Source: Auriscalpium vulgare
Lineage: Eukaryota > Basidiomycota > Agaricomycetes > Russulales > Auriscalpiaceae
Length of the DNA stretch: 64,000 nt
Reading direction: 5' to 3'
Assembly: GCA_019915015.1 (NCBI GenBank)
Contig: JAHBBC010000060.1
Coordinates: 1 to 64,000 of the forward strand
A model generated the notes under the pieces. That model did no database searches and was not told the origin of the DNA. It saw only the letters and a list, made by a program, of their open reading frames with translations. Below, in pieces: positions 5,451 to 56,301 of the stretch. Position numbers and translations under genes: made by a program. Position 1 is the stretch's first letter. Every line of letters begins with the position of its first letter.

Positions 5451-6273
5451 TCTCTCCTTTACTCTTTTTTTTTAAAATAATAAAGGTTATAATTTTTAAA
5501 TTCTTCCAAAATTTAAAGATAAAAGAGAATAATATCTGAATTTATAAGAAATAGAACATTTCTAAATAGGATGCAAATGAAAGTATTGTAAAGTATTAAG
5601 TTTAGCATTACTAATTTATTAAATAGACTTGATGTTTAAATTGTTTAAATAAATTTAATTAAAATAAATAACAAAAATAAATAAGCCTATATATTTATTT
5701 ATTTTATGGTCCGTATTTTTCCTACTTTCAATTCTATTTAATTATTTTTAAGTAGGTAAGTAGGACAAGGATATAAAATTTATATCTTAAGTATTATTTT
5801 AGTCTTTTACTTATTGATTTAACTGTCTTTTCAATAATAGTTCATAATTAAATAATTTTGGTTTTTTTGTTGTTAGTATTTTATAAAGTTAAATAATAAA
5901 GTAAATAAAAAAAGTATAAAAAGCTAAAATTATTTTCTTATATTTTGTTATAATTTAAGAATCGTTTGTTTTCTAAGCATTAAAATAAAATAATAATGAA
6001 TAATAAGACTAACCACACACATTTTTTTTTAACTTTTACTTTTACACAAGAAAATAAATAAAAGGATAATAATAAATTTAATAATAAAATAACTTAACAA
6101 AAATATTATAAACAAAATAGTATCATTATTACTAATTTTTATATATTTTATATAGTATATTATTATATAATAATTTAATATTTTATTATTAAAATAATAT
6201 TAATTTAATGCTTGAATTAAGAATGAAGCTTAATTATATGATCATAAAATAACTCTTGTTTGTTGAACCGAAT
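5451..6273. other. Intergenic after rnl
   Basis: This is AT-rich with no gene. The part at about 6118-6246 is a shortened copy of the repeat that also lies at 12052-12328 and 41150-41443. It carries the TGCTTGAATTAAG...AAGCTTAATTATATGA segment and ends in an ATGATCAT palindrome. Confidence 0.5.
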
Positions 6274-6512: not shown

Positions 6513-6587
6513 TTAAATAGTTAATAAGGTATATATATTTCACAACACAGTAAGTGCTGTAACAGTATAAATAATTTTTGATAACAT
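6513..6587 (-). CDS. 24-codon ORF behind a copied atp9 leader
   Basis: A short open frame begins with ATG at 6587, begins MLSKIIYTV and ends at TAA. I do not recognise it. The interest lies in its 5' side: the bases ahead of its ATG (6588-6668) repeat the atp9 leader, and the start codon aligns with that of atp9. After the start Met-Leu the product does not resemble Atp9. It may be a chance frame left when a leader was copied. Confidence 0.25.
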
Positions 6588-6668
6588 ATTTTGTTTTATT
6601 GTTATTTTTTTTAAGATAGCGTCTAACATATACAATAATTTAAAAAGTATACTCTTTTATTATAATAT
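6588..6668 (-). promoter_or_regulatory. Copy of the atp9 5' leader
   Basis: About 57 bases (6612-6668) are nearly identical to 13409-13466, directly upstream of atp9, in the same orientation. The shared stretch begins TTAAGATAGCGTCTAACATA on the plus strand. It runs straight into a cox3-type leader copy (6661-6783), so the two leaders are fused here. Confidence 0.75.
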
Positions 6669-6783
6669 TATAAATAATAATTAAATTAATATTTATAATT
6701 ACTACATTATTATTAAACAAATTAACGAATTCGTATTATAGTTACTTAAAGAAAATAAAGATTTATATTAATTAATTTTATTT
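6661..6783 (-). promoter_or_regulatory. Partial cox3-type leader, copy 1
   Basis: This carries the diagnostic block AACGAATTCGTATTATAGTT and the flanking ACTACATTATTATTAAAC, as found in reverse complement upstream of cox3. The 3' third of the leader is missing and is replaced by the atp9-type leader. Confidence 0.75.
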
Positions 6784-7023
6784 AATTAATTTTATTTAAT
6801 TCTTTTGAAGTAAGGTGAAGATAAATATTTTTATTATTAATTAGGCTTATACTATTCTTTTTTTTTTTTAACAAAGACAAACATAAAAAGAGGTAGGGGG
6901 GTAGTTACAATATAAAGCTTCTTACTTAAATTAAAAAGATGTTTAACACTATAAATAAATAAATTAGAAGTATTAAAACAAAAATAATCAAGGTTTTAGA
7001 ATGAAGTGTAATTATATAATCTT

Positions 7024-7578
7024 TTAACTCAGGAATTTACTTATTCTATTAATATCTTCAATTTCATTTAAAATAAATTTAGGTCAATTTCTAGGAATAT
7101 TTTTAAATTCTAGTTCATAGAATAATTTATATTTTAAATATATTAAAAAGTATATAAATATAAAACATATAGCATATATTAGTATTAACCATTTAATAAT
7201 ATACATTTCTTTATAAATAACACTCATAATAGAAACAAATATTCTTAGAGGATAATTATACTTATCATCCAAGTTAAAATAATATTTTAAAATAAAACAC
7301 CAAATTTATATACAAATACTTGAATATTTAATCAACTTAAACCAATTAATATTATTATTTTTGAATATTTTTGTAATAAATCCTAAAAATAAAGATTTAC
7401 TTATATTGTTGTCTTTGTCTAAATTAGAAGAAGATGGAGTATTATCAGGTAGATCTATATCAGATGGTAAACCAATAGGACCTACTAAGAATAATATTAA
7501 CAATAATGAGAAAGAACAGAAAATATTAAAAATTAAGATTTGATCTTGAAAACTAAAGCTATTTAAAAATCTATTCAT
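7024..7578 (-). pseudogene. Broken copy of the orf453 C-terminal half
   Basis: From about codon 32 the frame parallels orf453. The shared segment DNTPSSSNLDKDNNISKSL is followed by a Lys-rich stretch, then by a tract reading EMYIIKWLILIYA with the conserved EFKNIPRN after it. Where orf453 has a TGA Trp codon, this copy has an in-frame TAA (7306-7308), which splits it in two. The N-terminal part differs from orf453. It belongs to the tandem segmental duplication (about 6.66-8.19 kb against 9.89-12.69 kb). Confidence 0.7.
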
Positions 7579-7849: not shown

Positions 7850-8190
7850 TTTATTTATTTTTACTAATTTAATAATGGACTTTGGTGGACTTTTTTTTTA
7901 AGTCAAAATTCAGCAAATAGTTCTGGTTAGTTTTATTATTCAATCCCTATAACCTAATATTAACATATTTACTCTATTTGTCTCCCAGTCTTAGTAAGAC
8001 TAGACAAGAAAAAGCTCTACACACTACTCTCTTTTTATTCTGTTTGTGTTTAGATAAGATAATGCATAGAACATTCTTTACCTAAACTAATTTTTGTTTT
8101 ATTATAATAGTTTGTTTGGTTTTTAACTAAGAAATAGAATAAGAGTAACTATTATATTTAATAAGTTACTTTACTATATTTTTTTTGTAA
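7850..8190. repeat. Direct repeat, copy A (partner 12466-12693)
   Basis: Long shared runs include TAATAATGGACTTT, AAGTCAAAATTCAGCAAATAG, GATAATGCATAGAACATTCT and AATAGAATAAGAGTAACTAT, in the same order and strand at both sites. This copy has a 100-base insertion. Confidence 0.9.
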
Positions 8191-8337
8191 TGGGTGGAAT
8201 AGTTAAATTTTAATTCGCTTTATAAGGGGAAATTAAAATTTAAATAAGCTTTTGTTTATGATGTAAATTAAATTATATTATGATAAATTCTAAAGCTAAA
8301 TTGAGAGGCCAGTAGTAAATAAGTTGGTGTAACCAAA

Positions 8338-8543: not shown

Positions 8544-9806
8544 TTAATAATAAATCTGCAATGAATTTATAATGATTAAAAAATGCCTGAGTATTATTAT
8601 TATTACTATTATTTTAGTATCTTTTTTTTCTTTTGTAGATTTAAGATTAATTACATAAAACCTAGGATATAAAATAAACAAACCTTTGTAATCGAAAAAA
8701 TAAATTCTATAAAATTGATTAGAGTACAATTTTTCAATTAAAAATGATAAATTGTATAAGCAATCTATATAATGATCTAAATATTTTTTCTCTTTTTCTT
8801 TCTTTTTATTTTTTTCCAAGTTTAGAATACTATTTTCTAATAAATAAATTATACCTAGAATATCTATTACTATATTTTTAGCTTCTGAAATGCTTTTCCA
8901 TTTAGCCGTAATAAAGTTATATCCTATCACATTTTCTTGATTATTCTTAATACTTTCCATTTTTTCTTTTTCTTTTAATTCAGGAGATGTATTATCTATT
9001 CTGGTTAATTCATCCATAAAGTTAAAGTTACCTGTAATAAAATTTAAGTATTTTCTTGATATAGTATTATCCTTAACCACATTTAATTTATGGGATTCTT
9101 GTATAATACTATTATTTAAATATAGATTATTAAGTAGTAATAAAAACTTTGTTAAATTAGTTTCTACAGTAGAGAGTAAATGCCGTTTTGTATTGTATCC
9201 CCCAAAAATTCTAATGTTTACACTTCTAAAAATAAAATTTATTACTGGTCAGGGAATTTCCTCAAAGATAAATATAAAATTTTGAAAGGGGTGATTATGA
9301 TTTAGAAATAGTTTTTCTTTTGAACCTCATCTTTCTTTTATTCTTTGCATGGCTAAATCATAGTGTTCCTCCTCTTTAATAGGGTCACTAAAATTGTAAT
9401 TAGGGTTAAAATTATCTATAGTATTTTTATAAATTACTCTGGCGTAATAGTCTTCCTTATTATTTAGAATATTTGTAATATAATCAAAAATATTTTCCCT
9501 ATAAAATTTTAAATGTGCGGTTTCAATTAGTCTTTCTCCACCTTTAGGTACTGGTTTTATCGTAAAATTAATTACAGTGAAGTTAGATTTTTTAAAAAAA
9601 TCTGTGTTACTTAGGAGATCGTAATTTGTTTTCAATTTTTGAATATCGATTTCATAGGGGTAGTTTGTAATAGAGCAGACAGCATTCGTTTTATTTAAAC
9701 TTTTTTTATCCAGTATATACTCTATCTTAGATCTATCATCGTCCTGACCTTTAACTCTTACGATCGAAGCGATGATTTGTAATTTTTTTTGTTTTAAATT
9801 TGTCAT
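8544..9806 (-). CDS. orf420, unrecognised hypothetical protein
   Basis: One open frame of 420 codons when TGA is read as Trp, beginning MTNLKQKKLQIIASIVRVKG. I do not recognise it. The N-terminal two thirds looks soluble and charged. A Lys/Glu-rich, probably coiled stretch follows (around residues 320-345), and the C-terminus (last 30 residues) is hydrophobic, so it may be tail-anchored. It has no LAGLIDADG or GIY-YIG motif and no polymerase motif I can see. Its ATG lies 35 bases from a complete cox3-type leader copy (9841-9992). Length and lack of frame damage suggest it is under selection or recently acquired. Confidence 0.6.
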
Positions 9807-9840
9807 TTGTTATTTTTTATTTTTGTTTTTTAAATTTTAT

Positions 9841-9992
9841 TTACACTATAGCTCTTAATGTATATTTAATCTCTTTATTAAGATCTTATATTATAAATAA
9901 TAATAAATTAATATTTATAATTACTACATTATTATTAAACAAATTAACGAATTCGTATTATAGTTGCTTAAATTAGATAAAGATTTATATTA
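9841..9992 (-). promoter_or_regulatory. cox3-type leader, copy 2 (ahead of orf420)
   Basis: In reverse complement this is almost identical to the leaders at 42914-43095 and 54094-54280. It includes AACTATAATACGAATTCGTT, AATAATGTAGTAATTATAAA and CATTAAGAGCTATAGTGT. It has the same orientation relative to the ORF as the authentic leader has to cox3. Confidence 0.9.
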
Positions 9993-10648
9993 TTATTTAA
10001 TTATTTTAATTTTTTTTTTTAAATAATATAAACTTATTTATTCTTTTAGTAATAATATAAACTTATTTATACTTTTATGTAAAAATGGAAGTTAAAAAAG
10101 ATGTTTAAACTATTTTTTTAATTCAATTACTTTTAATTATTTTGTGTGTAGGAACCGTAGGTTAGTATTAAAGTAGGAACAAAAGATAGGCTCCGTAGGC
10201 TCCGCAGGCCTTTGTATACTTAAAATAATCAGGGCTATTTTTGTTTTTTTTGTAGATAGGGGGACAAAGGCTTTTATTTACATTAAAAAAAAAAACAAAA
10301 AGCCGCCTACACATTACTTCTGTGGCACCTATGGGTTTATATATTAATTACCTAATGGTCAGGTTAAACTAGTTAAAAATACTTTTATTATTTTAATTGA
10401 TTCAAAAATTAATCTTTTAAAATATATATATATATTTATAGTCATGGAAGACAATGGTAAGTATGGTTCCGTATTTGTAATATAAATATTTATATTTATA
10501 TTTATTATTAATTAGGCTTAAACATATACTATTATTATTCTTATTCTTAGTCTTATTATTATTCTGATTAAAACAAACAAAAATAGGTAAATATTGTAAG
10601 TGGTAGGGGGAGTTATAATATGGAGCTTCTAACTTTATCAAATTATAA
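9993..10648. other. Intergenic, duplicated tail region
   Basis: This is AT-rich with no gene. About 10500-10648 parallels 6835-7000 (shared ATTATTAATTAGGCTTA and AACACTATAAATAAATAAAT), part of the tandem segmental duplication. A 9-bp-unit element lies at 10181-10232. Confidence 0.5.
10181..10232 (+). repeat. 9-bp-unit element (GGCTCCGCA type)
   Basis: Two to three imperfect 9-base units lead into GGCCTTTGTATACTTAAAAT and a CAGGGCT end. This is the same right end as at 20980, 35245 and 48660. Confidence 0.75.
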
Positions 10649-12010: not shown

Positions 12011-12051
12011 TTGTTAATTTGTAAATTTTTTTTTTTCAACAAGAGGTAAGT

Positions 12052-12328
12052 TATATATAATTAAGCTTGCACTCTTAATTCAAGCATTTAATTAATATTA
12101 TTAATATAAAAAAAATATATAAACAATATCCTATATAAAATATATAAAAATTAGCAATTATAATACTAATTTTGTTAATTAATAAAGCTTTACATAAAAT
12201 ATTATTCTATTCTTCTTCTTCTCTTTATAAATTTACACTAATAATAAGTAATAATAATATACCATTACTAGGTAAAATGATATAATGTAAAAGAAATTAT
12301 TAAAATTTAACTTCATCATGTTCTTTTA
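12052..12328 (-). repeat. ~280-bp inverted repeat, copy 1 (partner 41150-41443)
   Basis: In reverse complement this matches 41150-41443 along nearly its whole length: GAACAT.ATGAAGTTAAATTT, TTACATTATATCATTTTACC, then a GAAGAAGAAG tract, then AAATGCTTGAATTA. The partner has a longer GAA tract (about seven units). A third, shorter copy lies at 6118-6246. The opposite orientation makes it a candidate site for inversion of the 12.3-41.1 kb segment. Confidence 0.9.
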
Positions 12329-12465
12329 TTATATTAAACATCTTTTTCTTTTACTAAATAACCATGTGTTATTGTAATTTTAATAAATAAATAAAAAGAA
12401 AGGGTTAATTATTAATAAAAATGGCCAGATAATAGTTAACATAAATTTAATGAAGTTATTATGGT

Positions 12466-12693
12466 ATATTTTTACTAATTTAATAATGGACTTTTTTTAA
12501 TTAAGTCAAAATTCAGCAAATAGTTTTGGTTAGTTTTATTCTGTTTGTGTTTAGATAAGATAATGCATAGAACATTCTTCTATTACCTAAACTAATTTTT
12601 GTTTTATTATAATAGTTTGTTTGGTTTTAAACTAAGAAATAGAATAAGAGTAACTATTATATTTAATAAGTTACTTTATTATATAATTTTTTT
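12466..12693. repeat. Direct repeat, copy B (partner 7850-8190)
   Basis: This is the same sequence as 7850-8190 without its 100-base insertion. It borders trnI copy 1. Confidence 0.9.
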
Positions 12694-12707
12694 TTAATTA
12701 AATTAAT

Positions 12708-12777
12708 AAGCCCAAGAAGATTTGAACTTCTATAAATTTCTCATCAAGAAATCATTCTACCATTAAATTATAGGCTT
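12708..12777 (-). tRNA. trnI(gau): tRNA-Ile (GAU), copy 1
   Basis: Acceptor AAGCCTA/TGGGCTT, anticodon stem ATTTC/GAAAT around loop TTGATGA, and T arm AGAAG/CTTCT. It is identical over all 70 bases to 17805-17874, and about 15 bases on either side match as well. Confidence 0.92.
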
Positions 12778-13167
12778 TATTTAATATTTTATTTGCTCTT
12801 ATATAAAGAACAGAACTTAAAATTATATTAAATTTATGTTATATAATATTATTTTTTTTTTTTAATATTTATAAAAACTAAATTAATAATATCGTGTCCT
12901 TAGGAGCCTAAGGACAATTAGGTATCAAAGGTAAAGGCTAAGAAGTACGGTAACTATAGTAATTACAGTAGTATGGTAAATATGGTAAGTATGATAAGTA
13001 CGGGGAGGGGGGTTGATATAATTTTATATCTAATTTGTTTATTTAAAATAAAATAAATTTGATATAATTTTATATCTAATTTGTTTATTTAAAATAAAAT
13101 AAATTATAAATTAGAATTTTTAATTTGTTATTAAAATAACAAAATTATCTTATAATATATCATAAAA
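12778..13167. other. Intergenic trnI to atp9
   Basis: This holds a short GC-richer patch with imperfect 10-base units of AAGTATGGT type (about 12955-13005). It also holds a 45-base tandem duplication at 13014-13106. No gene is seen. Confidence 0.55.
13014..13106 (+). repeat. Tandem duplication, ~45-bp unit
   Basis: Two copies of a unit beginning GATATAATTTTATATCTAAT lie head to tail just downstream of the atp9 stop. Confidence 0.9.
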
Positions 13168-13389: not shown

Positions 13390-13470
13390 ATTAATAAAAA
13401 AAATTTTTTTAAGATAGCGTCTAACATATACAATAATTTAAAAAGTATACTCTTTTATTATAATAATATA
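13390..13470 (-). promoter_or_regulatory. atp9 5' leader
   Basis: The segment AAGATAGCGTCTAACATATA at 13411 onward is repeated at 6613 onward. Being kept at two sites next to an ATG suggests a role in expression or a recombination hotspot. Function is inferred. Confidence 0.5.
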
Positions 13471-13745
13471 ATAAAAAAAACCTAGTATAATAATAATTTA
13501 TTATTTTTATTATTTTTATTATTACACTAGGTTAAATAAATAGAAAAGTGTGTGTAAACATCTTTTTATGATTATTATATTTTTTGATAATAAATTCCAT
13601 ATTTAAAAGAACAAAACCCTTTGATTAAACATAAGGGATTTATAGATCCGATCGGTTAAATATAATATTTAAATATATATTTTTAGTTAAAATAAATCTA
13701 TAAACTTTTTTTTTTTTTTTTTTTTTTTAATAAATAGACTTAAAC
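13471..13745. other. Intergenic atp9 to orf194
   Basis: This is AT-rich. A hairpin near 13478-13535 pairs AACCTAGTATAATAATAA with TTATTATTACACTAGGTT, and the AAACATCTTTTT motif lies near 13558. No gene is seen. Confidence 0.5.
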
Positions 13746-14330
13746 TTAATTGGTGAATATAATATAATCCATAGCTATAGTAGTGAAAATTGTAATAATA
13801 ATTAACAATATATTTATAAATAAATAATATTGTTGGAACTTTCTTCTTATTCTAATAAATTTTCCTATTTTAGGAAATTTTTCTTCTATTTTTAAATAAT
13901 TTAACAAATATTCACTATAAATTATAGTAATAATACTTGTTAAACATAGAAAAATTAACAAAGAAGTTAATATATGAGATAAGGCATATAATTGTTCAAA
14001 CCTTAATTGAGGGATTAAGTCTTTTAAATTTTGTAAAAAATCATACATATCATCACTCCCAAATTTATTAACTCTAGTTACAGCATTTTCATATGTTTCT
14101 TTCCAGAATATCATTTTAGGTATAATACTATTAATTTTACTTAATATTAATAATAAAATATTACTATTTTTAGTAGTAAGATCATTATTAAAATCAAGTA
14201 TAGAATTAGATACACTATCATTTTCTGACATAGATTTAATTATTTGTTCTATTTTTACTATAAAAAGAATAAACATTAATATTAATCCATAAATAATATT
14301 AAGTAAGAAATTTTTTTTTTTGATTTTCAT
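13746..14330 (-). CDS. orf194, putative membrane protein, mosaic with orf204
   Basis: This 194-codon frame is hypothetical. Residues 1-25 (MKIKKKNFLLNIIYGLILMF...) and about 29-65 (QIIKSMSENDSVSNSIL...) are nearly identical to orf204 (43096). The ~100 residues between those blocks in orf204 are absent here, and the C-terminal half is unrelated. Two or three membrane segments are predicted by eye (7-25, about 118-142 and 165-190). The segment EEKFPKIGKFIRIRRKFQQ resembles a broken frame near 52800. It follows a truncated cox3-type leader (14331-14392). It is probably a recombinant ORF, and expression is unknown. Confidence 0.5.
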   Translation of the reverse strand: MKIKKKNFLLNIIYGLILMFILFIVKIEQIIKSMSENDSVSNSILDFNNDLTTKNSNILLLILSKINSIIPKMIFWKETYENAVTRVNKFGSDDMYDFLQNLKDLIPQLRFEQLYALSHILTSLLIFLCLTSIITIIYSEYLLNYLKIEEKFPKIGKFIRIRRKFQQYYLFINILLIIITIFTTIAMDYIIFTN

Positions 14331-14392
14331 AATTTTGTTGTTGTTTATTAACGAATTCGTATTATAGTTACTTAAATTAGATAAAGATTTAT
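14331..14392 (-). promoter_or_regulatory. Truncated cox3-type leader, copy 3 (ahead of orf194)
   Basis: This keeps both ends of the leader, AACGAATTCGTATTATAGTT and the AATTTTGTTGTTGTTT next to the ATG. About 110 internal bases present in copy 4 (42914-43095) are missing. Confidence 0.8.
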
Positions 14393-15013
14393 GTTTATTA
14401 ATTAATTTTTATTTAAATTATTTTAATAATAATATAAACTTATTTATTCTTTTATTATAAAAAAGTTCCATTTTTAATTAAGATATTTAATATTTTTGGA
14501 CTATAATTATTTCTGTTTATAGTAAAAATGGTCATACCAAGTAATGGTAGGAAAAGATTCTTTGTGTAAAATAAGTAGGTAAGTATCCGTAAATGGCAAA
14601 TAAGTAGATAAGGTAATTTTTAAATTATTTTAATTAATTGATATTTGTCTAGGTCTGCTATTATTACTACTTCCGTATGCTTCCATAATTAATTTATTTA
14701 TTTTTCTTATTCTTATTCTTATTCTTATTCTTATTTTTATTCATATTAAAAATCTATTAGTCTTTAGTATAAGGGGAGGGGAGGAATTATGATTTAGAGT
14801 AAAATATTATAGATTTATTATTAATAAAAAAATCTAATTTAGATAGTAGATAACTAACTATTAAATTATAAATATAATAATAAATTATAATACTAATAAT
14901 ATTATAGATTATTTTATTCTTTTCTGTTCTTATTAAAAATAAAATATCTTTTTTTTTGGTAGGGTTACAAAGGCCTTTTTTTTTTTACACCATAAAATAA
15001 ACTTAAATAAATA
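14393..15013. other. Intergenic orf194 to cob
   Basis: This is AT-rich. It contains simple TTATTC repeats near 14706-14745 and a degenerate ACAAAGGCC element end near 14965. No gene is seen. Confidence 0.5.
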
Positions 15014-17700: not shown

Positions 17701-17804
17701 TAATTGAGCTATTATTAACAACAAAATGCTTATATGTTTAAGGAATATTGTAACAAGAAAAAAATTTATTTATAATTTATATAATTTTTTAAGTATTAAT
17801 TAAT

Positions 17805-17874
17805 AAGCCCAAGAAGATTTGAACTTCTATAAATTTCTCATCAAGAAATCATTCTACCATTAAATTATAGGCTT
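17805..17874 (-). tRNA. trnI(gau): tRNA-Ile (GAU), copy 2
   Basis: This is identical to 12708-12777 over the whole tRNA, including the loop TTGATGA. The shared block reaches roughly 15 bases beyond each end (TTTAATATTTTATTT on the right side). Confidence 0.92.
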
Positions 17875-18459
17875 TATTTAATATTTTATTTACTGTTATT
17901 AAAGTTCAGTATTTTAAATCTAAAATTTCTTTTTTTTTTGGTAGGGGACAAAGGAACCGAAGGAACCGAAGGAACCGAAGGAACCGAAGGAACCGAATGC
18001 CTTTATTATTTTAACTATTCAAAGGCCGAAAAAGTTTATTTATCTTATTAGAAAACTTACATAAACTGACCATAGTATTCGTAGGTAAGTAATAATTGCT
18101 GATTATTAACAACAACAACAACAAAAACAAAAAAGTCCATTAGAAATTTAAAATTGTTTGCAAAGGCTGAAAAATGCAAATTGACCACTTACCTAAGGAT
18201 ATATTATTCGTTCTACTTACCTACTTACCTACAGGGCCAAAGAATAAATAAAAAATTTTTATTTATAAGTTAAAATCTTAAAATCTTCAAATCTTAAAAT
18301 ATTAAAATATTAAAATATTAAAATATTAAAATATTAAAATATTAATAGGGCAAATTAGTAAATTAGGTTATATCTTTAAGATAAGTATGGAAAGTAGGTA
18401 TAACTGTAAGTACGGGGGGAGTTAAACATAATTTTGATTATAGTTAATAAATATTATAA
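17875..18459. other. Intergenic trnI to nad1
   Basis: This holds the 9-bp array at 17938-18010, an 8-bp AT repeat (AAAATATT) at 18296-18345 and a short AAGTAGGTATAACTGT-type GC patch. No gene is seen. Confidence 0.5.
17938..18010 (+). repeat. 9-bp array element (GGAACCGAA)5
   Basis: Five units lie at 17953-17997, preceded by GGTAGGGGACAAAGG and followed by TGCCTTTATTATTTTAAC. The ends are the usual ACAAAGG and a degraded CCTTTGT. Confidence 0.92.
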
Positions 18460-19476: not shown

Positions 19477-20553
19477 AATTTTTATCTTTATACTTTTTTT
19501 TTCAAATATTTATATATAGTTAAAATTAAATTATTTTTATTTTTTTATTAATAAAATATTTAAATTAGTATATATAAATAAATGATTTATTTACGTTATT
19601 TAAAAATAACAACATAGCCTAAATTAATTATTTTTGTTTATTAGTTAAAAAAAAAACAACAAAAGGTTGAATCAGCTAATTCTACAATGGCTTATTTATT
19701 TGGTATAAACATCTTTTTATGATTATTATATATTATATATTATATATTATATATTATATATTATATATTATATATTATATATTTATACCAAGAATAAAAT
19801 AAGGAAGCGAAGCATATTATATGTGTTATATTATAAGTATCATATACTTTATGTTAAAAGACTTTAACCTTGAATAATAGTAGACTTTGAAAATAGTTTA
19901 ATAATAGTAATATCACAATTACTTAAATTAATAATAAAATATCTTAGGGGACAAAGGCCTGCGGATCCTGCGGATCCTGCGTATTATATTTTTATAACAC
20001 AACAAAACAATCAGAGCCGCAATAAAATTTAGTTATTGATTTATTTAGCTGATAAAATAAGTACTATTAAGTTATTATTGGTTAAAATCTAACTTATTAC
20101 CATTACCGTTAATAAGTGAAGTAAGGTAATTATGGCTTACAGTTAATTAAGGTAAGTACTTACAGTTAAGTAAAGCAGGTAATATATACCTAAACCTAAT
20201 AATATAATAAATAGTAAAAATACATTGTAACAAAAAAAAGAAATTCGCATCTCCGTACTTACGTAATAACAAAATTCCTTCAGATACATATAAAGAAATA
20301 TTAATCTATATATTAATGATCATAAAAAAAGAATGATCATAGTTTTAGACTATCGGTAAGTACAAGTAAGTTATTATGGTAAGTAAGAGATGTAAACAAG
20401 GCAAGCTAAAATTTAGACCTATAATTAAGTAACTTAACTATTTTAATTTAATAAACAAATTTTAGTTATTATAGTTTATATAAACAAAATGGTCTTAATA
20501 TTAAAAAATTAGTGCCAAACAGCCTTTGCAAATAAATTAATTATTTAGCCTTT
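19477..20553. other. Intergenic nad1 to trnR
   Basis: This is AT-rich without a gene. It holds a TATATTA simple repeat (19727-19785), a 9-bp element (19933-20016), several GTAAGTA-rich patches (about 20110-20170) and two ATGATCAT palindromes (20318 and 20335). Confidence 0.5.
19933..20016 (+). repeat. 9-bp array element (CCTGCGGAT type)
   Basis: The left end AAAATATCTTAGGGGACAAA runs into GG and two units of CCTGCGGAT, and the right side ends ACAATCAGAGCCGCAA. The left half is almost identical to 20929-20970. Confidence 0.88.
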
Positions 20554-20623
20554 ATTCTCTTTTGGAGTCGAACCAAAATTAACATTTTAGAAGAATGCTG
20601 TTCTACCATTAAACTAAGAGAAT
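20554..20623 (-). tRNA. trnR(ucu): tRNA-Arg (UCU)
   Basis: Acceptor ATTCTCT/AGAGAAT is perfect. The anticodon stem GCATT/AATGT holds loop CTTCTAA. It decodes AGR, the main Arg codons used in this genome. Confidence 0.93.
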
Positions 20624-20708
20624 TTATTTTTCTTTTTTCTTCTTTTTATTATTGTTAGTACAAGTACAAAAAAGATGTCAAATTTAGTTTTATTTATTTT
20701 TTATAATA

Positions 20709-20805
20709 AATTATTAAATTATCTCTTTTGTTGGTATTTAACAGAGGAAAAGCAGGAAGGATACCAATGACAAAATGACCCAATGACCCAATGACACAAT
20801 GACAG
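20709..20805 (+). repeat. Dispersed ~95-bp repeat, copy 1
   Basis: ATTAAATTATCTCTTTTGTTG is followed by GGATACCAATGACAAAATG and copies of ACCCAATG. It is nearly the same as 46522-46613, and the 3' half recurs at 48597 and inverted at 40480. Confidence 0.9.
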
Positions 20806-20928
20806 CAGTCGATCATTAAGAGCCTTGTGGATAATAACAGTAAAGTTTTTTTTATGATCATTAATTTTATTACTTTTATTATATTCAAGGATTAATGTAA
20901 AAATATATTAAATAACTGATACTTTTAA

Positions 20929-21012
20929 ATTATCTCTTAGGGGACAAAGGCCTGCGGATCCTGCGGATCCTGCTTACCTTTGTATAGTTAAAAATAATCA
21001 GAGCCGCAATGT
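20929..21012 (+). repeat. 9-bp array element (CCTGCGGAT type)
   Basis: ATCTCTTAGGGGACAAAGG is followed by two units of CCTGCGGAT and then CTTACCTTTGTATAGTTAAA and a CAGAGCCGCAA end. It shows the full left and right ends of the family. Confidence 0.92.
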
Positions 21013-35162: not shown

Positions 35163-35263
35163 CAAATGAATCTAATTAAAATATCTTGAGGTACAAAGGA
35201 ACCGAAGGAACCGAACGAACCGAAGGTACCGAAGGAACCGAAGGCCTTTGTATAGTTACAAAT
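35163..35263 (+). repeat. 9-bp array element (GGAACCGAA)5 with inverted ends
   Basis: This is the clearest member. AAAATATCTTGAGGTACAAA, then five 9-base units at 35198-35242 with point variants (CGAACCGAA, GGTACCGAA), then GGCCTTTGTATAGTTACAAA. ACAAAGG (35193-35199) and CCTTTGT (35245-35251) are inverted repeats able to close a hairpin around the array. Confidence 0.95.
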
Positions 35264-40656: not shown

Positions 40657-41149
40657 AAAAATTATAACCTAAAATAATATAATTAATAAAAATGTTCATA
40701 TCTGGATAATCTTCTTTTTTATTTTATGACCATTTTTTTAAATCTCTAAAAAAATCCACCTATTACTGTGTTTGTTTTAATATTTTGATTTTAATTTACT
40801 AAATTAGGTATTTTTTTTTTACAAACACAAACATTTTTTAATTTACTAATTGCTTTTCTATGAGTATTATAATTTATTTCTATTTCTTTCACAAAAAAAA
40901 ACAAAAATAAGATTTTATTTTTAACTTTCCTGTATTATTAGTTAACTACCATTTTTATTAATGATAAATTAAATTCATTTTTTTAATTACAAATATAAAA
41001 TATATAAAAGAATTTATGTATATGATTGTAATTTAATGAAAAAATATTTTCGATATTTTTTTCAATTAAGATCATTCATATTAAACATCTTTTTTTTTTT
41101 AACATCTTTAAATAAATCTAGGTTATATTAAATCTACATTCATTATTTA
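40657..41149. other. Intergenic trnL to inverted repeat copy 2
   Basis: AT-rich with poly-T runs and two AAACATCTTTTTT motifs near 41087. No gene is seen. Confidence 0.5.
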
Positions 41150-41443
41150 AAAGAACATAATGAAGTTAAATTTTAAATTTTCTTTTACATTATATCATTT
41201 TACCTGGTAATGGTATATTATAATTACTTATTTTTGGTGTAAATTTATAAATAGAAGAAGAAGAAGAAGAAGAAGAATAGAATAATATTTTATTTAAAGC
41301 TTTATTAATTAAAAAAAGATTATAAAAATTAGTATCATTATTGCTAATTTTTATATATTTTATATAGGATATTCTTTATATATTTTTTTTATATAAATAA
41401 TATTAATTAAATGCTTGAATTAGAGTGCAAGCTTAATTATATG
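41150..41443 (+). repeat. ~280-bp inverted repeat, copy 2 (partner 12052-12328)
   Basis: Matches 12052-12328 in reverse complement with scattered differences and a longer GAA tract. It lies ahead of a broken membrane-protein frame, as copy 1 lies ahead of orf453. Confidence 0.9.
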
Positions 41444-41532
41444 AGGATAAAAACTCTAAAAATTTTAGCACTAAAAAAGTAAACTATTTAAAATAAACAA
41501 AAATATATTATGTTAAATTAACTTAAAAATAA

Positions 41533-42490: not shown

Positions 42491-42913
42491 TAAAGAATAT
42501 TTAAAATATAATATGAATTGTTAATTTTCATAACTACCATTTCGCTAGTTATAATTATAGTTAATATAAAAAACTAAATTCTCCTATAAACCTACCATTA
42601 ATAATTATCCCCTAAAAATAAACTTTTAGAAAGTAGTAATTGAGATAGAAAAAAATCTTTGATTATGAGGATAAGAACAACAATAACAACAGTTCAATTT
42701 TAGGGAAGTTTATATACTTTGTTATTAATTTTTATATCTCATTTTTTGTATTACCATTTTTATGTTTGTTGATATTAGAAGGTACTCATTTTATTCTTTT
42801 TTTTATTTTATTTTATTTTTATTTTAACAAAAAAAAATATTTAAAAGTATGAATAAATTTATATTTTTTAAATAATAAATTAATTAAATAAAATTAATTA
42901 AATAAAATTAATT
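42491..42913. other. Intergenic before the orf204 leader
   Basis: AT-rich with no gene. Its right part (TAAATAAAATTAATTAAAT) resembles the sequence left of the other cox3-type leaders. Confidence 0.5.
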
Positions 42914-43095
42914 AATATAAATCTTTATTCTAATTTAAGTAACTATAATACGAATTCGTTAATTTGTTTAATAATAATGTAGTAATTATAAATATTAATT
43001 TATTATTATTTATAATATAAGATCTTAATAAAGAGATTAAATATACATTAAGAGCTATAGTGTGAATTTATTAAAAACAAAACAACAACAAAATT
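42914..43095 (+). promoter_or_regulatory. cox3-type leader, copy 4 (ahead of orf204)
   Basis: Nearly identical to 54094-54280 over ~180 bases, with AACTATAATACGAATTCGTT, TAATAATGTAGTAATTATAA, CATTAAGAGCTATAGTGTGA and the AAAACAACAACAAAATT next to the ATG. Orientation relative to the ORF is as at cox3. Confidence 0.93.
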
Positions 43096-43710
43096 ATGAA
43101 AATCAAAATAAAAAATTTCTTACTTAATATTATTTACGGATTAATATTAATGTTTATTCTTTTTATAGTTTATTATTTAAATTTAGGATATTATTTTTTA
43201 AATTTATTTCTTTGTATAATTGTTTTCTATAATATATTTGAAAGATTTAAATATTCTGATATATTATTAATAAGATGATTACAAAAAGTTATTTTATATA
43301 GTATATGTGTATATTTATCTTTTTATTTAATGAGCACATTAGACGGTATTTTAATTCTTGATAACCATTACGTAAGTGCAAATGATTGGAAGCAGTATTT
43401 CAAAGTACTAATTAATGAACTAGTACAAATAATTAAATCTATGTCAGAAAATGATAGTGTATCTAATTCTATACTTGATTCTAATAATGATCTTACTACT
43501 AAAAATAGTAATATTTTATTATTAATATTAAGTAAAATTAATAGTATTATATCTAATAGCATTAAATTTTTATTAAAATGATTATTGTTATTACTATTAA
43601 TCATGAGAGTTTTAGGATTTAAAAGTGTTATTGAAATTACTAATAATATTTTATATGTAAAAATGGTGGTAGGTACATTATTTATTTTTGTAATATTTTA
43701 TTTTTATTAG
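43096..43710 (+). CDS. orf204, putative membrane protein, unrecognised
   Basis: 204 codons starting MKIKIKNFLLNIIYGLILMF. It has about five hydrophobic segments (7-50, 62-80, and three in the last 50 residues) and a soluble loop (residues 80-150) containing SMSENDSVSNSILDSNNDL. The N-terminus and that loop are shared with orf194. A further frame, open from 43708 to 43904, reads DIYLSILFSNKDIKISKLLP and onward to IIILIFILLL. It looks like the former C-terminus cut off by a one-base shift in a T-rich run, so the ORF may be a truncated ~270-residue protein. Confidence 0.5.
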
Positions 43711-43904: not shown

Positions 43905-44123
43905 ATTATTTAGTCCACCTATTTTATTAAATTATTATAAAAAAAAAAATAAAAGTTTTCCCTTAGTCACATACACATCTTTTTCTATTTATTTAACCTA
44001 GTGTAATAATAAAAATTATTATTATATGTAAAAAAAAAATGAAAAGAAAATTATTGCTTGTCACTAATAAAAAAGGATGTAGATCTTAAAGCCACAAGAA
44101 AGCTATAATATGATCATAAAAGA
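43905..44123. other. Intergenic orf204 to nad2
   Basis: The stretch AACCTAGTGTAATAATAAAA near 43994 matches the hairpin arm downstream of atp9 (13478-13535). An ATGATCATAAAA palindrome lies at 44111, just before the nad2 ATG. Confidence 0.5.
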
Positions 44124-46267: not shown

Positions 46268-47180
46268 ATAAAATTCTTTAAAAAAAAAAGTATGTTTATT
46301 GACTAAAGCTTTAAATATACCCTATAAATAAAAGATTTTAATTAACTATTTATCATTTACTCCCCCCATCTACTTATCTACTACATACTTAAGTACCTTA
46401 ATTTTTTTTTTTGCGTTCCGCGTTCTGCGTAAAAAGCTGCGTTCCGGCCTATAATATTTTAATAAACGCACAGCTTTTTAATACTTTATAATAATAATTA
46501 AAAAAATATAATTATGATCATTAAATTATCTCTTTTGTTGGTATTTAACAAATGAAAAGCTGGAAGGATACCAATGACAAAATGACCCAATGACCCAATG
46601 ACACAATGACAAATGGTAGGTAGGTAGGTAAGCAGGCATTTTAATACTTACAATAAAATAAGAGCCTTCTATTCGTAAACTAGACAAGCAAAAAGATGTT
46701 TATTAATTTATAAAATAATTTAATAAATAAAATAATAATAATATTAAAAGAATCGAATATTTTAAGGCCGATATAAGTTATTAATATTCTATTTCATCCC
46801 AAAAACAAACCAAAGACCATTAACTTAAAGAATACATTAGAATCACTAATTTTGTTAGTAACAATAACAAGTTATATCAATAAAAAATCTCAATAACTAT
46901 AAAAGAAATATAAAAATTGCTTGTCGGCCGATAATAATAATTATATTTGCTTGTTGTTTTTTCTTATTATTATTAGTAACAAAACAAACAAAACAAACAA
47001 AAGTAAATATTTTATTTTAATTTATCTACTTACCTACTTAACTTATTAAACTTACCTAACAGTTCTAACTTTTAACTTAACTTAGCCTACTTAACTTGTC
47101 TTAGCTATTTCTTTCTATAAAGACAAGACAGAATAACTAACCTTTTCAAATTTAAATTTCTTTCTGTACTTTAATAACAA
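46268..47180. other. Intergenic nad3 to trnA
   Basis: No gene. It holds a GC-rich patch with GCGTTCCGCGTTCTGCG units (46417-46450), the dispersed ~95-bp repeat (46522-46617), an AGCCTTCTATTCGTAAACTA element near 46665, and AT-rich DNA. Confidence 0.5.
46522..46617 (+). repeat. Dispersed ~95-bp repeat, copy 2
   Basis: Same as 20709-20805: TAAATTATCTCTTTTGTTGG, then GGAAGGATACCAATGACAAA and alternating ACCCAATG / ACACAATG units of 8-9 bases. Confidence 0.9.
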
Positions 47181-48504: not shown

Positions 48505-48848
48505 AAAGGTTTTTAATATTAAAAATGGCCCTAAAAATAAAACAAAATATTTAGGGCCATCTGCTAGTATAAGGGCTCGGTAGGACTACAAAAGAAGGAT
48601 ACCAATGACCCAATGACACAATGACCCAATGACAAATGGAAGTATACGCAGGCTCCGCAGGCCTTTGTATAGTTAAAATAATAAAAGCAAAGTTCCGCCG
48701 CAACCCCAAAATTATTAAATAAATCTAGCAAAATATTTATTTAATTATAATAGTTTCCAGATTTTATTTTTAATTATTTTTTTAACAAAAACAGTAATTA
48801 AAAATAAAATAATCCTTTTCCCTACTTAAAATAAAAAATAAAATAAAT
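48505..48848. other. Intergenic trnY to trnP
   Basis: Holds GCCCTAAAAATAAAAC...ATTTAGGGCC, a hairpin (48530-48561) just after trnY. It then holds the CCAATGAC repeat (48597-48638) and a GGCTCCGCAGGCCTTTGTAT element (48650-48690). No gene is seen. Confidence 0.6.
48597..48690 (+). repeat. CCAATGAC repeat fused to a 9-bp element end
   Basis: GGATACCAATGACCCAATGA with alternating units is followed within 15 bases by CGCAGGCTCCGCAGGCCTTT and TATAGTTAAAATAATAAAAG. The same two families are adjacent at 40402-40531, in opposite orientation. Confidence 0.88.
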
Positions 48849-52960: not shown

Positions 52961-54093
52961 CAAACACATTATTACTCCTAGAGTAAAAAATTAGATTAAT
53001 ATTTAGAGCATAATTACAATAATACAATAGGCTTTATTATTACACTAAATTATAATAACTTATCTTAGTTTCCATTATATAGTATGTATCGAAATATTAA
53101 CAAAGGTATTTTTTTTTTTAGGGCCATCTTTACCAAAGATAGGTTTACCTGCATTATAATTAAAGTGTTTAATAATTAAACACAGTAAAGTGATATTCTA
53201 CTGTTTTTAATTTAAAATAAGATATATAGTTAATTACTTCTTTTTTGTAATATATCTTAATTTTATAAAAATTTAACTTCCCCTTACATTAAAACTCAAA
53301 TAAATTAATTATAGAATCGTAATTAATATAAATACATTTATTCCTAAGCCAATTATAAAATAAAAAATGATCAGAAAACTTTTTTTTCAATAACTATCCT
53401 CATCTTAAACTGGTACAATTCCTCTATAAATTACTATTTTTTAATTTTTCGTTTTAACCCCCTCCGCAGTGGCGCAGTGGCGCAGTGGCGCAGTGGCGCA
53501 GTGGCGCAGTACTTGTAGTAATTAATAGATCAGGAATAAACCTAAATTATAAGTTTTTTTAATCTGATTAATCACATAAATTTATAAATTTAATATATAA
53601 ATTTAAACATTTTATTATAAATATTTTAATTTATTAATACTTTTTCTAATTTTATAAGTTAAATTTAATTTATAGATTCAGTTTAATAAGTACCTAAAAT
53701 ACCAATACCTGTAAAAAGAGTAGAGTCTACCTCCTCACCTTATCTTACTTGTCCTACTTATCTTACTTTGCTTACTTTGCCTCTCCTTCTAATTTGCTAA
53801 TTTGTTAATTTATTAAGGACCTAATAACCTAATTTGTTAATTTGTCCGTAGGTAAGTAGGAGATAAACTAACTTAATTTTTAAATCTAATACCATTAAAA
53901 GATTATTTTACCTAGCCCTTCACATTAAAAAGTAATAAAACTAAGAAAAGTAAGAATAGTAACAAAGTAACAATAATCACAAAGAACAAATAAAAGAATA
54001 AATAAATTTATATATATTATATATATAATAAATTAATTAAAAAAAAATTAATTAATTATATATAATAAATTAATAAAATAAAAACTAATTAAT
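52961..54093. other. Intergenic before the cox3 leader
   Basis: No gene in 1.1 kb. It holds the 8-bp array at 53465-53510, CTTACTTTGCTTACTTTGCC-type patches (53740-53775) and palindromic AATTAATTAAT-rich DNA at the right end. Confidence 0.5.
53465..53510 (+). repeat. 8-bp minisatellite (CGCAGTGG)n
   Basis: Five full units and one partial, all perfect, between CCCCCTC and TACTTG. Confidence 0.95.
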
Positions 54094-54280
54094 TAATATA
54101 AATCTTTATCTAATTTAAGTAACTATAATACGAATTCGTTAATTTGTTTAATAATAATGTAGTAATTATAAATATTAATTAATTATTATTTATAATATAA
54201 TATCTTAATAAAGAGATTAAATATACATTAAGAGCTATAGTGTGAATTAATTAAAAACAAAAAAACAACAAAAGTATAAA
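54094..54280 (+). promoter_or_regulatory. cox3 5' leader (likely source of the copied leaders)
   Basis: The ~185 bases before the cox3 ATG are those repeated at 42914, 9841, 14331 and 6661. They hold AACTATAATACGAATTCGTT, an EcoRI-site palindrome region, CATTAAGAGCTATAGTGTGA and an A-rich end. A role as leader or promoter is inferred from its fixed position ahead of four reading frames. Confidence 0.7.
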
Positions 54281-55167: not shown

Positions 55168-56301
55168 ATGAAAATAAACTCAATAATAAAAATAATAAAT
55201 TATTTATCTTATCTAAACAAAAGATTTACGATATTTATTATAGTACAATTACCAATTTTTAAATTTTATTTTTTAATTTGTTATCTTTTTACTTTTTTTA
55301 TATTCGTATTTCTACATTTATCTGAAAATTTTATATTTGTACTTGATAAATATGCTGCTAATAATATCTATTCTTTATTTATAATTCAAACGGAAGAAAA
55401 AGTTAATTTAATAAATTTTGGATTAAATTATATGGATAATTTTGATTTTTTTCAGATGTCCAATTCTATTAATTTGTCTATTACGATGGATGCTGATTTT
55501 GATTCTGATAAAGAATCAATGATCCTAGTAAAAAGTAATAATATTTTAAGTTCAGGATACCTTAAAGGAGAAGAATTATGACAACCAAATAATCCTAATC
55601 CTAATCCTAATTTTCCTAATAATAATCCATTAGAAATATCTTTATTTAATGAAAATAATGAATCTAATGATAATGAAAATAATAATTCATCCGCATTAGA
55701 TATCGTAGAATTAGAAACGGATCATATTCCATTAATAATAGAATCAAGTAATTTTAATGGAGAAGGATCCGTAGGATCCGTAGGATCCGTAGGACAAAAT
55801 GATAATACTATTCAAAATAAACCATTTCATACAGTTAGAGGAGAATGATTATATGGTTGATCATTATATCCTGAACCTTTAGGAATAGTGTATATGCCTA
55901 TTTATTTTGATTTTAATTATAATCAATTAATTTTTACTGACAATGGTGATATTTTTTATCCAGGTAATTCTTATGGATTTTTTGGAGATTATTATATAGA
56001 ACGGGATTTAAATGGTAATATTATTTCAGATACTATTCATCGAGAAGTTGATGGTAATATAATTCCAGAAAGTAGAATTAAACATAATATTAGACCTACT
56101 AGATTTACAGGAATAACATATGGTCCTCCTTATAGTCCACATAATAAACCAGATATTATTATGGCAAATTTAAATACAAATACAAGTATAAATACTTCTA
56201 AAATTAGTAAAGTCCTAAAACCTTTAAAAAAAATAGGAAATACAATAATTAAAAGTACTAAAAAAATAAATTCTAATATAATAAATTTATTTAAAAAATA
56301 A
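55168..56301 (+). CDS. orf377, putative membrane protein with in-frame 9-bp repeat
   Basis: 377 codons beginning 68 bases after cox3, so probably co-transcribed. I do not recognise it. One or two membrane helices lie near the N-terminus (about 17-50). An acidic Asn/Asp-rich region follows, with a PNPNPNFPNNNP tract at about 140-151. Residues 199-210 (GEGSVGSVGSVGQ) are encoded by a GGATCCGTA 9-bp array. The C-terminal part holds beta-hairpin-like FTDNGDIFYPGNSYGFFGDY and RDLNGNIISDTI, then a Lys-rich tail. The open frame across several TGA codons argues that it is, or recently was, a gene. Confidence 0.6.
55765..55794 (+). repeat. 9-bp array (GGATCCGTA)3 inside orf377
   Basis: Three perfect units plus GGAC in frame, encoding GSVGSVGSVG. 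Confidence 0.9.

Follow-up and report, generated by a model that had tools for sequence, protein, structure and literature searches.

Copies of the cox3 leader precede accessory reading frames of two families in the mitochondrial DNA of Auriscalpium vulgare

The 5' end of cox3 is duplicated elsewhere in the mitochondrial DNA (mtDNA) of Auriscalpium vulgare: there are four further copies of its leader, and three of the four precede an intergenic ORF in the sense orientation. On balance it is probable that these accessory ORFs took over the duplicated cox3 leader as an expression signal, and that a core of 146 nt was kept for that role. The orderly reuse of the leader is real, and a function for it is plausible. 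The copies are homologous, and most of the flanks have changed more than the core; that cox3 was the donor, that recombination was the route and that the core acts in expression is what we infer.

The window, by which we mean the whole stretch of DNA analysed, is the first 64 kb of a mitochondrial contig (C60) of 91,315 bases, which covers a circle of about 66.3 kb roughly 1.38 times. Translation with code 4 shows respiratory-chain ORFs in the window. Pfam confirms cox3 and atp9, and recognition of translations gives the genes that we take to be nad, cob, cox1, cox2, atp6 and rps3; rRNA genes and 23 tRNA genes are also annotated. Between its two laps the contig shows 109 differences over about 25 kb, and therefore reading frames need care; orf420 is 420 aa long when read from the first lap and 456 aa long when read from the second. 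In the doubly covered leader stretches that were checked, the laps agree for orf420, orf194 and the orphan of a second leader-like family, and single-base differences, one each, occur at 6858, 12309 and 13404. The cox3 and orf204 leaders, as well as the stretch at 41.5-42.5 kb, are covered once by the contig. Other features of this mtDNA include a duplication of tRNA-Ile with its flanks (12679-12823 and 17777-17919, 91% over 145 columns) and short GC-rich repeats scattered in AT-rich spacers (17936-18013, 35172-35258, 19956-21004, 10179-10229 and 48632-48682; families D1, D11 and D15). A relic of a family B DNA polymerase of the mitochondrial-plasmid type, with internal stops, lies at contig positions 65454-66395 (-) and reaches about base 93 of the window (PF03175, 205.7 bits).

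The repeated block measures about 290 nt, and not about 180 bp as given in an earlier reading of these letters (the sequence-only reading). It is composed of a 22-nt box, an AT spacer, the 146-nt core and a short UTR (Table 1). The order of the elements is common to the cox3, orf420 and orf204 leaders, with spacers of 84, 37 and 52 nt (that of orf420 measured from the nearer of its two boxes) and UTRs of 37, 36 and 32 nt, respectively. The 22-nt box has five matches in the window at up to 2 mismatches, all in leader copies (two of them in tandem before orf420), with 0.06 expected; likewise, a 19-mer from the core has five matches at up to 3 mismatches, each within a copy, with 0.27 expected. 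A deleted form had been described before orf194, and it is present: box and first 46 nt of the core, the latter identical to the cox3 core, are followed by a gap of about 116 nt relative to orf204 (our own count), and the homology rejoins 16 nt before the ATG, as before orf204. The orphan, which had been placed at 6661-6783, exists and extends over 6661-6801. Inside the core there is an ATGTAG, a start codon with a stop immediately after it, at 54157-54162, and the same bases occur in the orf420, orf204 and orphan copies.

Table 1. Leader copies, the reading frames behind them and other leader-like stretches. Positions are those of the window.
Feature	Position	Strand	Anatomy or remark
cox3 leader	53992..54280	+	box 53992-54013, AT spacer 54014-54097, core 54098-54243, UTR 54244-54280
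cox3, 272 aa	54281..55099	+	Pfam COX3, E=1.2e-115
orf420 leader copy	9807..10076	-	tandem boxes 10055-10076 and 10026-10047, spacer 9989-10025, core 9843-9988, UTR 9807-9842
orf420	8544..9806	-	first 13 bases as in cox3; C-terminal end uncertain
orf204 leader copy	42843..43095	+	box 42843-42864, spacer 42865-42916, core 42917-43063, UTR 43064-43095
orf204	43096..43710	+	product rich in hydrophobic stretches; no Pfam match
orf194 shortened leader copy	14331..14453	-	box 14432-14453, spacer 14393-14431, core part 14347-14392, then 14331-14346
orf194	13746..14330	-	two stretches in common with orf204, remainder differs
Orphan part-copy of cox3 leader	6661..6801	-	without box and without last part of core
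atp9 leader copy fused to cox3-leader orphan	6606..6673	-	98.5% to 13404-13471
Second leader-like family	12038-12328	-	before orf453
Second leader-like family	41148-41457	+	before 41.5-42.5 kb, which holds no long ORF
Second leader-like family	6048-6260	+	orphan

All five blocks were found close to where the sequence-only reading had put them, and their similarity is far above chance (pairwise blastn, E=4e-94 to 2e-27 for the pairs with cox3). Compared with the cox3 leader, the orf204 copy shows 90.3% over 258 columns (E=4e-94), the orf420 copy 83.6% over 317 (E=2e-86), the orphan 92.0% over 137 (E=1e-49) and the orf194 copy 83.8% over 111 (E=2e-27). The orf420 copy matches that of orf204 at 86.1% over 259 columns (E=2e-80) and that of orf194 at 88.4% over 112 (E=1e-31); orf194 against orf204 gives 81.1% over 122 (E=2e-23). 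The orphan is nearest in sequence to the orf204 leader (97.1% over 138 columns, E=8e-59), with 82.0% over 200 columns to orf420 (E=7e-47) and 87.3% over 79 to orf194 (E=3e-19). A leader search of the 51.6-Mb assembly, which skips very common words, gave nine matches, all on the mitochondrial contig; of these, three are repeats from the second lap, and in one the cox3 leader pairs with its own reverse strand.

The copies before orf420, orf204 and orf194 all lie in sense, as had been claimed, with ORF starts at 9806 (-), 43096 (+) and 14330 (-). The chance that a random block ends 0-60 nt before the start of a same-strand ORF of at least 190 aa is about 1%, taking the 20 such ORF starts in the window, core genes included. 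It had further been said that the identity stops close to the ATG. This describes cox3 and orf204, where it runs almost to the ATG (29 of 32 UTR sites alike, 5 gap columns) and where the ATG of orf204 aligns with cox3 positions -6 to -4, at which cox3 has ATA; it does not describe orf420, where near-identity ends 36 nt before the ATG.

The three accessory ORFs are not unrelated, as the sequence-only reading held them to be. Since orf204 and orf194 have coding DNA in common (98% over a stretch of 90 nt that includes 74 coding nt, and 97% over 139 coding nt), the three ORFs make up two families, and orf194 looks like a fusion. None of orf420, orf453, orf194, orf204, orf366 and orf377 has a Pfam match at E 0.1, and hence none matches the plasmid DNA or RNA polymerase families. 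No relative of orf420 or orf453 was found in a large protein collection at E<=0.001 (7998 and 7995 candidates scored), nor any match of orf420 or orf204 to PDB sequences at E up to 1. An NCBIfam search with the six ORFs gave one match, to orf194 (E=0.052, 14 of 60 bits), which lies far under the cut-off and was discarded. One of the six, orf377 (55168-56301, +), starts 68 bases past the cox3 stop and could be on the cox3 transcript.

The stretch around the orphan is connected with 9.9-12.7 kb by four collinear matches (6665-6861, 6888-7484, 7856-7937 and 8033-8191), the orphan being at the low end of the run. To judge by this collinearity the stretch is a decayed duplicate of that region, although in sequence the orphan is nearest to the orf204 leader. 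No ORF of at least 45 aa lies behind the orphan at 6.66 kb. A frame of 24 codons at 6513-6587 (-), which may be due to chance, stands directly behind the fused cox3/atp9 leader orphan. Given the kinship of orf194 with orf204 and the place of the orphan in a duplicated stretch, independent captures are fewer than the number of copies suggests. As for the capture of the leader by accessory ORFs, the idea put forward at the outset, it thus stands on orientation, position, the first codons of orf420 and the Cox3 tree, with the number of independent events reduced: the leader is carried by two ORF families, and the remaining copies may be secondary spread.

Among the three full copies the core reaches 98-99% identity, with 3 substitutions per 146 sites between cox3 and orf420, 2 between cox3 and orf204 and 1 between orf420 and orf204. 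In the same order of pairs, the UTR shows 12 of 36, 3 of 32 and 13 of 32 sites substituted, and the spacer 10 of 37, 7 of 52 and 5 of 37, with 47, 32 and 15 gap columns; the AT spacer aligns poorly. With core limits set post hoc from the alignment, Fisher tests give p=2e-7, 0.041 and 2.4e-10 for core against UTR, and p=7e-6, 0.0014 and 0.0014 for core against spacer. Every one of the three pairs shows the upper edge of the core. A clear lower edge is confined to the two pairs that include orf420, because the cox3/orf204 UTR is nearly as alike as the core; the orf420 UTR may have been replaced rather than diverged. Within the one genome compared, the pattern fits constraint on a functional element and also fits local gene conversion limited to the core. 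The low rate of change in the core gives indirect support for a role in expression, more weakly so for the cox3/orf204 pair.

Based on these observations, the leader copies could have arisen as follows. The cox3 5' region, beginning near -290 and reaching the start codon at least, would have been copied to other places in the mtDNA and there become linked to accessory ORFs. The join to orf420 would have kept the cox3 start codon and first codons. In the orf204/orf194 family the leader homology stops near the start of cox3, and the ATG that belongs to the ORF itself aligns with cox3 positions -6 to -4. Later duplications and exchanges would have spread and trimmed the copies. Throughout, the 146-nt core would have been kept as a cox3-type expression signal, be it a promoter, an mRNA 5' end or the binding site of a message-specific factor, and through it the ORFs would be expressed in a cox3-like way. 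In favour of such a role, orf194 has lost most of the leader yet retains the first 46 nt of the core unchanged; against it, the orphan keeps part of the core with no long ORF behind it.

The latter observation is also what would be expected if the copies were passive repeats, that is, by-products of recombination in a rearrangement-prone region, with conversion keeping the core alike and the ORFs playing no part. There are many other duplicated stretches in 6-18 kb, and the flanks are mosaic: the orf194 box equals an orf420 box exactly, and the orf194 coding part matches orf204. However, three copies face ORFs in sense at a short distance, at about 1% for each random block, and the two pairs that involve orf420 agree on both edges of the core. 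This reading keeps an appreciable, minority chance of being correct.

If the core is an expression signal, it does not appear to be a general one. When the core was compared with 20 other upstream regions (two-base block shuffle, 100 per region), none exceeded the maximum of its 100 shuffles and 4 exceeded the 95% level, where 1 is expected. The idea of a general mitochondrial promoter was rejected on this result. Since no other upstream region tops the best of 100 shuffles, the core is specific to cox3 in this mtDNA, and a cox3-specific element seems the simplest view. A more daring proposal is that a nucleus-encoded factor reads the core as a control element specific to cox3, and that capture of the core put two new ORF families under cox3 control as a small regulon; we offer it tentatively, as a rather doubtful extension of leader capture.

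Several other signals were sought in the core and in the upstream regions. A stable RNA fold of the core was rejected (relative to shuffles, the three full copies score z 0.82, -0.15 and 0.36); the core sequence contains no GC-rich palindrome, nor is it a compact folded palindromic unit of the kind seen in GC clusters and double-hairpin elements. The yeast-like promoter word shows no excess (8 matches against 5.7 expected; 27 of 100 shuffles reach 8). The 10-mer ATAAAGAGAT occurs in 6 of the 20 upstream regions (1.0 expected), but it is the best of 143 ten-mers tried and its places form no clear pattern. With one mismatch allowed, the word AAAGATGTTTA is matched 19 times where 9.4 are expected; the matches fall on both strands, for example at 12335-12345 (-) and 46692-46702 (+). 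The core patterns have no exact match in viral contigs or genome contigs.

The direction of copying can be approached from the start of cox3 itself. The two genes orf420 and cox3 are identical over 13 bases from the ATG (Met-Thr-Asn-Leu), whereas orf204 and orf194 share no first codons with cox3; going by base composition, we roughly estimate that chance would match the ten bases that follow the ATG in fewer than one in ten thousand trials. Among the Cox3 sequences listed in a protein search, the best are 93-94% identical, those named being Lactarius, Russula and Lactifluus, followed by Hericium at 90%. In a tree of the query and 69 of the 120 sequences listed, the query is placed, without strong support, beside and outside a group of 40 that holds Lactarius, Russula and Lactifluus. 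Judged by this one gene, the mtDNA is probably that of a Russulales species that lies outside Russulaceae. The sequences that branch just outside the query's group start with MTNI, MTSL or MTTI and have, like the query, a length of 272 aa. For this reason MTNL is most simply the old start of cox3, copied into orf420, and the shared codons together with the Cox3 tree favour cox3 as the probable donor. A Cox3 search of viral contigs gave no relative; in genome contigs, the 80 listed of at least 584 confirmed loci bear bacterial titles, with no fungal locus among the matches listed.

The opposite direction, in which the leader of an accessory or plasmid-derived element replaced the cox3 leader and first codons, has to be considered because the Cox3 sequences closest by identity, among those listed, have a different and shorter start. 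This start, MNKIN, is the commonest one listed and belongs to the shorter, Russulaceae-type sequences; the query starts with MTNLTIK. The plasmid-type DNA polymerase relic also lies nearby. Against a replaced start stand the MT-type starts of equal length just outside the query's group and the lack of any Pfam plasmid-family match in orf420, orf204 and orf194, and we consider it unlikely. Least probable is that the core is a self-multiplying origin of replication or recombination, as proposed for small promoter-bearing Neurospora mitochondrial elements (Hausner 2006, as described in PMC10234125): the copies are indeed dispersed, but three of them face ORFs and the core has neither a GC-rich palindrome nor a stable fold.

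The cox3 leader is not the only one shared in this mtDNA. In the second leader-like family (Table 1), the two copies that were tested fold better than their shuffles (z -2.20 and -2.72), and no core gene carrying this family was found. An exact stretch of 28 nt lies upstream of both atp9 (13516-13543, -) and a nad2-like gene (43985-44012, +), in sense in each case (2 matches, 0 expected); by eye, the atp9 copy is part of a long inverted repeat. Leader sharing thus recurs, as this second family and the 28-nt stretch indicate.

In plant cytoplasmic male sterility, chimeric ORFs use the 5' regions of core genes, and both their expression and the phenotype are known. Leader capture in A. vulgare would be alike in that a respiratory gene lends its 5' region to new mitochondrial ORFs. 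It differs in that plants are another kingdom with a much larger, recombining mtDNA.

Closer parallels come from fungi. The yeast COX3 mRNA leader is bound by the activators Pet54, Pet122 and Pet494 through an element at -480 to -330, and the review that describes this system lists no orthologs of the activators outside Saccharomycetes (PMC3978653). A gene-specific cox3 leader directing translation in a similar way would explain why the core stands before cox3 only among the core genes. Partial core-gene duplication is described in other fungal mtDNA, as partial nad2 copies in Stemphylium lycopersici (PMC5626475) and Heterobasidion irregulare (PMC4201751); going by these descriptions, a coding part of nad2 was copied and not a leader common to several ORFs. 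A large inverted duplication is described in Phlebia mtDNA (PMC4019555).

The main idea is already in print for a related genus. According to PMC10234125, the mtDNA of Heterobasidion annosum s.l. (Russulales) carries the 5' ends of nad2, cox3, atp8 and two unknown ORFs in front of cox2 and of intergenic ORFs, and the authors of that paper propose that the 5' copies (PA_nad2, PA_cox3 and PA_atp8) may keep the intergenic ORFs expressed. Both cases concern core-gene 5' ends, including that of cox3, duplicated upstream of intergenic ORFs in a Russulales fungus. As far as that description allows a comparison, the block in A. vulgare differs from the Heterobasidion 5' gene copies in that it consists largely of non-coding leader and holds no more than four codons of cox3. 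The present case is therefore a further one of leader reuse. For the question of how new ORFs in fungal mtDNA gain expression, the defined, reused core gives a concrete element. A second Russulales mtDNA beside that of Heterobasidion suggests that leader capture reaches beyond one genus.
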